In this document: positions 4,505-7,019 of the stretch, piece after piece | Numbering within the stretch: the stretch's first letter is position 1 | How the letters are laid out: the number at the start of each line of letters is the position of its first letter | Origin: Nitrospinota bacterium | GTDB taxonomy: Bacteria; Tectomicrobia; Entotheonellia; J063 | Assembly: GCA_003696125.1 (NCBI GenBank) | Contig: RFHZ01000034.1 | Span: 1-7,271, forward strand | Direction of reading: 5' to 3' | Length of the DNA stretch: 7,271 bases | Notes under the pieces: generated by a model | Databases searched by the model: none | Told to the model about the DNA's origin: nothing | The model's input: only the letters and a program-made list of their open reading frames with translations | Translations under genes and position numbers: made by a program

Positions 4505-4533
4505 TTGACCTCTTAGCAGGAATATCCTAATAT
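4505..4533 (+). promoter_or_regulatory. Sigma-70-type promoter for the hydrolase-mtaB genes
   Basis: TTGACC (4505-4510), a 17-nt spacer and TAATAT (4528-4533) make a near-consensus promoter pointing at the hydrolase gene. The start of transcription would be near 4540, giving a leader of about 87 nt to the ATG at 4627. It faces away from the transporter promoter, with about 56 bp between the two -35 boxes, room for a shared regulator site. I found no convincing operator palindrome. Confidence 0.65.
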
Positions 4534-4626
4534 GAATCTCTGACGCAGGTATCGGCATCATGGCTAGCCTGTCTCATAGAGCCCAATAGGGTGTGGTGTT
4601 ATTCGAGAATTCCGATGGGAGGAAAG

Positions 4627-5550
4627 ATGGTGACTGCTCAACCTATGCCCCAAGGCCTGCCGCTATTTGACGCTGCCCGATCGATGGGGGTCGTCTTTGC
4701 CCGGGAGACCTTACCGCAGGACCGGTTTGTGACCGCAAATGGACTCCGCTTCCACTACCTGGAATGGGGAGAACCGCATAATCCTCCGATCCTGATGCTC
4801 CACGGCTTTGCCCAGACGTGTCACTCTTGGGATTTTGTGGCCCTCTCCCTGTGCGACCGCTTCCGTGTTCTCGCCCTTGACCAGCGAGGACACGGGGATA
4901 GCGAGTGGGCACCAGACGGCGATTACTCACCAGCGGCGTTTCAACGAGACCTTCATGCCGTTGTGCAGGCGCTCAACCTCCACGATTTCGTCCTCATCGG
5001 TCTCTCCATGGGGGGGAGAAATGCCTTTAGCTACGCCGCCAACCACCCGGAACGGGTGAAGGCGCTGGTCATTGTGGATGCCGCGCCAGAGACCCGACGG
5101 GCAGGGGTGGAACATATCCGTCGCTTTGTGCAGAGCACGGATGAACTCGATTCGTTTGAAGACTTTGTGGAACGGGTACGACAGTACAACCCGCGCCGAC
5201 CGGTCGAGCAATTACGGGGAAGCCTCCAGCACAATCTGAAGCAACTCCCCAATGGTAAATGGACCTGGAAGTACGACAGAGTCCTCCGCGCCCCGGGCAG
5301 ACCCATGGGCTCGGATCCTGCCTACACCCAACGACTATGGGGATATCTTGAGGCCTTGCAATGCCCTACCCTTGTGGTGCGGGGCGCAGAGAGTGATGTG
5401 GTGGCCCTGGAAACGGCTGAGAGGATGCACCAGAGAATCCCGAACAGCACTCTAGTCACGGTGGAGAGAGCAGGACATCTCGTTCCTGGTGACAATCCGG
5501 CCGGCTTTGTCCAGGCGGTTACCGCATTCCTGGCCACCCTGGAGAAGTAG
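4627..5550 (+). CDS. Alpha/beta-fold serine hydrolase
   Basis: This 307-residue cytoplasmic alpha/beta hydrolase has no signal peptide. Family marks, numbered from the ATG at 4627, are the oxyanion-hole turn MLHGFAQTCHSW (about 57-68), the segment ALDQRGHGDSEW, the nucleophile elbow GLSMGG with Ser127, an acid at Asp257 (GAESDVV) and the catalytic His284 in AGHLVPGDNP. The triad is therefore complete. The nucleophile is Ser, which favours an esterase, lactonase or C-C hydrolase over a haloalkane dehalogenase, which uses Asp. The substrate is not evident. I chose the ATG at 4627 because GGGAGGA lies just before it. Upstream in-frame ATGs at 4591 and 4615 lack such a site. It has its own upstream promoter, and mtaB follows after a 53-bp gap on the same strand, so the two are probably co-transcribed. 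Confidence 0.9.
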   Translation: MVTAQPMPQGLPLFDAARSMGVVFARETLPQDRFVTANGLRFHYLEWGEPHNPPILMLHGFAQTCHSWDFVALSLCDRFRVLALDQRGHGDSEWAPDGDYSPAAFQRDLHAVVQALNLHDFVLIGLSMGGRNAFSYAANHPERVKALVIVDAAPETRRAGVEHIRRFVQSTDELDSFEDFVERVRQYNPRRPVEQLRGSLQHNLKQLPNGKWTWKYDRVLRAPGRPMGSDPAYTQRLWGYLEALQCPTLVVRGAESDVVALETAERMHQRIPNSTLVTVERAGHLVPGDNPAGFVQAVTAFLATLEK

Positions 5551-5603: not shown

Positions 5604-7019
5604 ATGCTTTCACCTCGACAGCGGGCAACGACACTGGCGTACGCGGCACCGGAGGAGATGTGTTTCGGTTTTGCTCCTCATCCGGTGCGGTGTGGGCATG
5701 ACCTCCTCATCGGAGGGGGGACCGTCCTCCCTGAAGTGAACTTTACCCTCCCCCCGGTCTCCCTGGATGAGCAGAGCTTTCCTGAGGTGCGGCAACTCTT
5801 CCAGACGATGGCTACTCGTATCTTACAACGAGCACTCCGTCTCAACCAGCCTTCCCTGGTCTTAGAATTCGAGCACCTGTACGAATTCACCGATCGACCT
5901 GCCTGGGGTGCCCTGATCACCGCCGACCTGCGCAAGATCCTGGACGACTTCTACCAGCGGTACGGGCTGCAAACGGCCCTGCGGGTTACCGTGGCCGATA
6001 TCCGCGAGCAGGAGCGTCCACCTCGTATGCGGACAGGTGCGCAACTCGTTCAGATGCTGCAAGCTTTTGAACAGTGTGCAGATGCCGGTGCAGATATCCT
6101 CTCCATCGAGAGTACCGGTGGCAAGGAGCTCTTTGATCAGGCCTTACTGCTAGGGGATATCGAGGCGGTGGTGTTTGCCATGGGTGTGCTGGCCTGCCGG
6201 GACATGGAGTTTTTGTGGAGACACATCGTAGACATCGCCAGACGCTACGACCGGATACCGGGAGGAGATACGGACTGTGCGCATGCGAATACGGCCATGC
6301 ACCTGGCCCATCAGGGGATGATGCCCAAGGTGCTGGCCGCCTTGATCCGTCTTTTAGGGAGTGTACGTTCCCTGGTCGCCTGTGAAATGGGGGCCACAGG
6401 TCCCCTGAAGGATTGTGGCTATGAAAACCCGATCATCAAAGCAATCATGGGGGTTCCCATCAGCATGGAGGGGAAGGGCAGTGCATGTGCCCACTCCTCT
6501 CCACTCGGTAACATCACGGCGGCTGTCTGCGATCTCTGGAGCAACGAATCTGTCCAGGATGTGCGTCTCCTGGGCGGTTTTGCCCCGGAGGTCTTTACCG
6601 AGATTCTCATCTACGATTGCCGCCTGATGAATGCCGCCCTCCGTCAGGGGACTGCACCCGGCCTGCGCGATCTCTTCTGTCAGGCTGATCGAGCAGAAGA
6701 CCCGCAATCCTGGATGATGGATCTCCCTATCCTCTATGCCACAGCCCAGCGTATCGTGGAAGTACCCGGGGAGCAGGGGAGGAACACTGCCGAGATAGAC
6801 TACCAGCGTACACGGGCCGTGGCCCACTACGCCTGCACCATCCTCAGCGAGGCCAGCAGAGCACAGGCGTTCTCCCTCTCTCCCAAGGAGGAGCGATGGC
6901 TGGAACGATTGACTCGTACCATCGAGACGTTACCCGAGTCGGGGGAAGAACTACGGATGCGTGTCGAGTCGCACTATCCGTCCCTCTTCCTCCCGGCAGA
7001 GTATGGATTAACGAACTAG
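5604..7019 (+). CDS. mtaB: MtaB-like methanol:corrinoid methyltransferase (methanol-cobalamin methyltransferase B subunit)
   Basis: MtaB takes the methyl group from methanol and puts it on the Co(I) corrinoid of its partner MtaC, releasing water. This is the entry step of methanol use in methylotrophic methanogens and some acetogens. The whole 471-residue protein follows the Methanosarcina MtaB pattern as I recall it: LAYAAPEEMCFG and GGGTVLPEVNF near the N-terminus, then LSIESTGGKELFD, GGDTDCAHANTAM, GPLKDCGYEN, MEGKGSACAHSSPLGN and DLWSNESV. The three zinc ligands known in M. barkeri (Glu164, Cys220, Cys269) correspond to Glu169, Cys225 and Cys271, all kept, so it should be catalytically able. 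The length is close to the archaeal enzyme (about 460). GAGAGGAG about 10 nt upstream is a good ribosome binding site for the ATG at 5604. No mtaC or mtaA gene is adjacent, which is unusual. A related corrinoid methyltransferase with another small methyl donor remains possible. Confidence 0.9.
   Translation: MLSPRQRATTLAYAAPEEMCFGFAPHPVRCGHDLLIGGGTVLPEVNFTLPPVSLDEQSFPEVRQLFQTMATRILQRALRLNQPSLVLEFEHLYEFTDRPAWGALITADLRKILDDFYQRYGLQTALRVTVADIREQERPPRMRTGAQLVQMLQAFEQCADAGADILSIESTGGKELFDQALLLGDIEAVVFAMGVLACRDMEFLWRHIVDIARRYDRIPGGDTDCAHANTAMHLAHQGMMPKVLAALIRLLGSVRSLVACEMGATGPLKDCGYENPIIKAIMGVPISMEGKGSACAHSSPLGNITAAVCDLWSNESVQDVRLLGGFAPEVFTEILIYDCRLMNAALRQGTAPGLRDLFCQADRAEDPQSWMMDLPILYATAQRIVEVPGEQGRNTAEIDYQRTRAVAHYACTILSEASRAQAFSLSPKEERWLERLTRTIETLPESGEELRMRVESHYPSLFLPAEYGLTN

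Follow-up and report, generated by a model that had tools for sequence, protein, structure and literature searches.

An intact, deep-branching bacterial MtaB without a detectable corrinoid partner in a fragmented draft genome

Background

The described methanol:corrinoid methyltransferases closest to the protein considered here are the MtaB of M. barkeri, in whose structure (2i2x) we take E164, C220 and C269 to be the zinc-binding residues, and the acetogen-type enzymes of Acetobacterium and other Bacillota. The mtaB gene has been proposed as a marker for anaerobic methanol use, and a split of MtaB into two clades has already been reported (PMC5770442). In Brockarchaeota mtaB always adjoins a corrinoid protein gene (PMC8065059), and in Acidobacteriota mtaB is expressed (PMC10805028). 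A phrase search of the literature recovered no paper reporting an MtaB without MtaC.

The window analysed in this work is a stretch of 7,271 nt that makes up one whole contig (C703) of genome G000, a 4.18 Mb draft in 990 contigs with an estimated completeness of 94.8% and contamination of 8.0%, from a bacterial group with little sampling. An original prediction had recognized in it an intact mtaB between a hydrolase and a helicase with no mtaC nearby, and had offered two explanations: either MtaC is encoded elsewhere, or the enzyme represents a stand-alone branch with another corrinoid partner or another methyl donor.

Results and discussion

An intact MtaB with a complete zinc site

The 471-residue product of this gene matches the PF12176 profile over positions 2-459 of 460 (E 8e-158), and its closest PDB sequence is the M. 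barkeri enzyme (2i2x_A). Its AlphaFold2 model, with a pLDDT of 91.4, aligns in Foldseek to that chain with TM scores of 0.93/0.95 and an rmsd of 1.8. The prediction of an intact MtaB is borne out by these matches, and the numbering that it gave for the three zinc ligands proves to be correct (Table 1). Against the NCBIfam equivalog MtaB_Meth (NF040651) the protein scores 456.7 bits, below the curated cutoff of 720, and it is thus an MtaB outside that curated methanogen subgroup. Judged by its sequence, its substrate is probably methanol.

Table 1. Features of the window on and around mtaB
Feature	Position	Strand	Evidence
alpha/beta hydrolase, 319 aa, 53 bases 5' of mtaB	4591..5550	+	PF00561, E 3e-35
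mtaB, methanol:corrinoid methyltransferase, 471 aa	5604..7019	+	PF12176, 526 bits; 2i2x_A, E 6.6e-101; model TM 0.93 to 2i2x_A
zinc ligand Glu169 codon (M. barkeri Glu164)	6108..6110	+	alignment, invariant in 44/44
zinc ligand Cys225 codon (M. barkeri Cys220)	6276..6278	+	alignment, invariant in 44/44
zinc ligand Cys271 codon (M. barkeri Cys269)	6414..6416	+	alignment, invariant in 44/44
XPB-type DNA helicase start, 18 bases past mtaB stop, truncated by contig end	7038..7271	+	PF18458

Gene neighborhood and origin of the contig

The contig carries, in order, genes for MutS2 and an EmrB-type transporter on the reverse strand and for an alpha/beta hydrolase, MtaB and an XPB-type helicase on the forward strand. 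Both immediate neighbors are of the types originally named: the upstream protein is an alpha/beta hydrolase whose PDB relatives are hydrolases and esterases, and the 78 residues of the downstream fragment contain an XPB damage-recognition domain (PF18458 XPB_DRD, E 5e-19). No mtaC lies in the window, as had been noted; the contig ends 252 bases 3' of mtaB, and the view stops inside the helicase. The three co-directional genes, separated by 53 and 18 bases, may form an operon; a single promoter-like site was found upstream of the run (4505-4533), no better than chance expectation. An ester hydrolase might conceivably supply methanol to MtaB. The window had no detectable plasmid relatives, and none of 24 pattern matches among viral contigs was an MtaB.

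The contamination estimated for the bin, together with the lack of MtaB in all four class relatives of G000 that were searched, would be in keeping with a contig contributed by a different organism that possesses MtaC. We nevertheless hold such an origin to be very improbable, as the tetranucleotide composition of the contig correlates with the rest of the bin at 0.954, the range for the bin's own contigs being 0.915-0.989, whereas the MutS2 loci of the class relatives correlate with the bin at just 0.54-0.57. Furthermore, the contig bears the only MutS2 of the bin and so duplicates nothing.

Phylogenetic position and sequence constraint

A maximum-likelihood tree was built from 44 MtaBs, with M. 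barkeri standing for the archaea and without the Acidobacteriota and Brockarchaeota enzymes; in it the window MtaB forms a single long branch between the methanogen-type and acetogen-type clades. It is at most 49% identical to any other member and falls outside every sampled mtaC-linked clade, a result that answers the tree check suggested with the prediction. Support is good for the branches that surround it; its exact place is unsure because of long branches and narrow sampling. Its grouping with unlinked MtaBs (clade L074/L076/L077; those of genomes G719, G435 and G477) was weakly rejected (p-AU 0.044).

If the partners had been lost, the enzyme might be a remnant that is decaying or has been repurposed for another substrate. 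Such a fate would fit the failure to find partner genes in the assembly, the unrelated genes that surround mtaB, the replacement by Ala of the Ser at position 361 that is invariant in the 43 other MtaBs, and the alteration of near-invariant positions 66, 104 and 374. We consider it quite unlikely, for all 471 codons form an unbroken reading frame, and the protein retains 87 of the 93 positions kept in at least 90% of other MtaBs, the zinc site among them. After thinning of the set at 75% identity, the window enzyme deviates at 4 of 87 such positions, the range for the other enzymes being 0-12, and its rate of departure is no higher than that of mtaC-linked MtaBs; accordingly, the sequence gives no sign of relaxed constraint, be it through decay or through release from partner contacts. 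The GC and GC3 of mtaB also resemble those of the neighboring genes, and nothing points to another substrate. Of the two explanations first offered, the one invoking a stand-alone branch is upheld as to the depth of the branch; for a different methyl donor, we found nothing in support.

Linkage of mtaB and mtaC in bacteria

We then considered how regularly mtaB and mtaC are linked. Among 387 genomes from the phylum of G008, 14 encode MtaB, as do 31 of 398 from the phylum of G005 (an Acetobacterium); at most surveyed loci an mtaC match lies within 1.5 kb of mtaB. In three genomes (G507, G429 and G462) mtaC is present somewhat beyond the first flank. No mtaC was found within about 8 kb of mtaB in G719, G435 and G379, nor on the shorter mtaB contigs of G302 and G477, and in G211 mtaB sits at a contig edge. 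In all six of these genomes without mtaC near mtaB, proteins with the cap domain of MtaC are encoded elsewhere; where such proteins were compared with linked MtaCs, which covered five of these genomes, identity was 53-64%. The cap-domain gene adjoins the gene for the reductive activator RACo in G477, G435 and G379, and that for a URO-D protein in G719. Separation of mtaB from mtaC is, in consequence, a recurring and normal variant in bacteria, and by analogy an unlinked MtaB would be expected to act in trans. As the survey shows, not all bacteria keep mtaB and mtaC linked.

Truncated genes were also encountered. An MtaB fragment next to mtaC (L079, G432:C1) covers profile positions 1-141 and then directly 407-460, and is likely an internally deleted mtaB; two small MtaB remnants (L049 and L050, G302:C49) occur alongside an intact MtaB of the same genome.

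Search for partners in the draft genome

A profile search of the G000 assembly, which encodes one MtaB, found no protein with the B12-binding_2 cap domain of MtaC and MetH (PF02607); the domain was present in all nine genomes searched alongside, namely the four class relatives and the first five MtaB genomes. Five proteins with a B12-binding domain (PF02310) were recovered, three of which are radical-SAM proteins by sequence inspection. The other two are mutase small subunits, which shows that the organism uses B12. These two short proteins were rejected as MtaC candidates, as they carry the mutase motif GLDGHDRG, adjoin a mutase large subunit in one case and epimerase-like and MeaB-like ORFs in the other (names assigned by reading the sequences), and match MtaC at no more than about 32% identity across some 90 aa.

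No RACo/RamA-type reductive activator (PF14574) was matched in this incomplete assembly. Its four URO-D proteins comprise HemE and three paralogues under all MtaA cutoffs, one of which, L008, reaches 108.7 bits (cutoff 244) and retains a His-x-Cys plus Cys pattern (HxC...C) that aligns with that of MtaA 4ay7. L008 (1495-2487) and L009 (1474-2475) are related paralogues, 37% identical, and L009 has HMH...C in place of this pattern. The genome-wide check proposed with the prediction therefore turned up neither an MtaC-type protein nor RACo, and nothing scoring above an MtaA cutoff, and the suggestion that MtaC is encoded elsewhere, which agrees with all six genomes with unlinked mtaB, lacks a counterpart in G000 itself. 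Methionine synthase is missing too: neither MetE (PF01717) nor a cap-domain MetH was found in the assembly, and large cap-domain proteins of MetH size occur in all four class relatives. Either auxotrophy or a loss of sequence from the draft could lie behind this gap, which makes every absence from G000 less certain and weakens claims of true absence. A core MetE accepting the methyl group from free methylcobalamin was discarded as a candidate acceptor, there being no PF01717 protein in the assembly.

Proposed readings: an MtaB acting in trans, or one without a dedicated partner

The partners are thus missing either because the assembly has a gap or because the organism has truly lost them, which would be unusual. 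Based on the intact MtaB with all its ligands, the constraint that it has kept, the recurrence of unlinked mtaB with partners elsewhere, and a 990-piece draft that also lacks MetH and MetE, we lean towards an ordinary MtaB acting in trans on an MtaC-type corrinoid protein, the MtaC-RACo locus having been missed by the assembly. The window gene would accordingly be a functional, deep-branching bacterial MtaB. Methanol would be activated on its zinc and the methyl group passed to Co(I) of the corrinoid protein. The gene for the latter, mtaC, would lie at a separate locus, perhaps beside that for a RACo activator, and this locus is most likely absent from the draft; the final acceptor of the methyl group might be tetrahydrofolate or another molecule. 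As mtaC lies beside RACo in three genomes, loss of one locus or small contig could have removed both partners. Against this proposal, at 94.8% completeness the chance that any random locus is missing is only about 5%, and MtaC, RACo and methionine synthase must all fall in gaps, the first two perhaps as one locus. The lack of MtaB in the class relatives also counts against it, and the isolation of the branch weakens inference from other clades.

A possible but more doubtful alternative is that MtaB is a true orphan, methylating either free cob(I)alamin or the corrinoid of a non-MtaC protein, with the methyl group going on to the MtaA-like L008 or to another acceptor. Besides the missing MtaC and RACo in a largely complete assembly of a B12-using organism, the deep and isolated branch and the MtaA-like ligand pattern of L008 would suit such a role. 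Its plausibility comes in part from a 1999 paper by Sauer and Thauer, cited in PMC5770442, according to whose title free cob(I)alamin can substitute for the MtaC of M. barkeri. Co(I) is, however, hard to maintain without a reductive activator, L008 is distant from MtaA and unlinked to mtaB, and every other genome with an unlinked MtaB that was tested has cap-domain proteins. In its strict form the proposal has a bacterium without MtaC and RACo using a native single-component MtaB, with free cobalamin or a non-MtaC corrinoid as acceptor of the methyl group from methanol; this we judge unlikely. Given the roughly 5% chance per missing locus on one side and the low prior for a partnerless MtaB on the other, the in-trans and orphan proposals stand fairly close, and our weighing of them is a matter of judgement.

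The finding of a deep MtaB branch in a genome with no detectable partners is a warning that the presence of mtaB alone does not necessarily signify a complete methanol pathway. If the partner loss is real, this would be an MtaB operating without a dedicated corrinoid protein.

Comparison with known systems

With M. barkeri MtaB of MtaBC the window enzyme shares the fold, the zinc ligands, its full length, the GDTDCA and KDCGYEN motifs and 40% identity; unlike it, the window gene has no adjacent mtaC, and its product forms a separate deep branch under the NF040651 cutoff. The acetogen-type MtaBs of Acetobacterium and other Bacillota have the same domain and conserved positions and are 40-49% identical to it, but most of them have mtaC adjacent, and the window enzyme falls outside their clade. 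With the unlinked MtaBs of G719, G435 and G477 it has in common unrelated genes around mtaB and no neighboring mtaC; these three genomes, in contrast to G000, where none was found, have a gene for an MtaC-like protein at another site, adjoining that for RACo or a URO-D protein.
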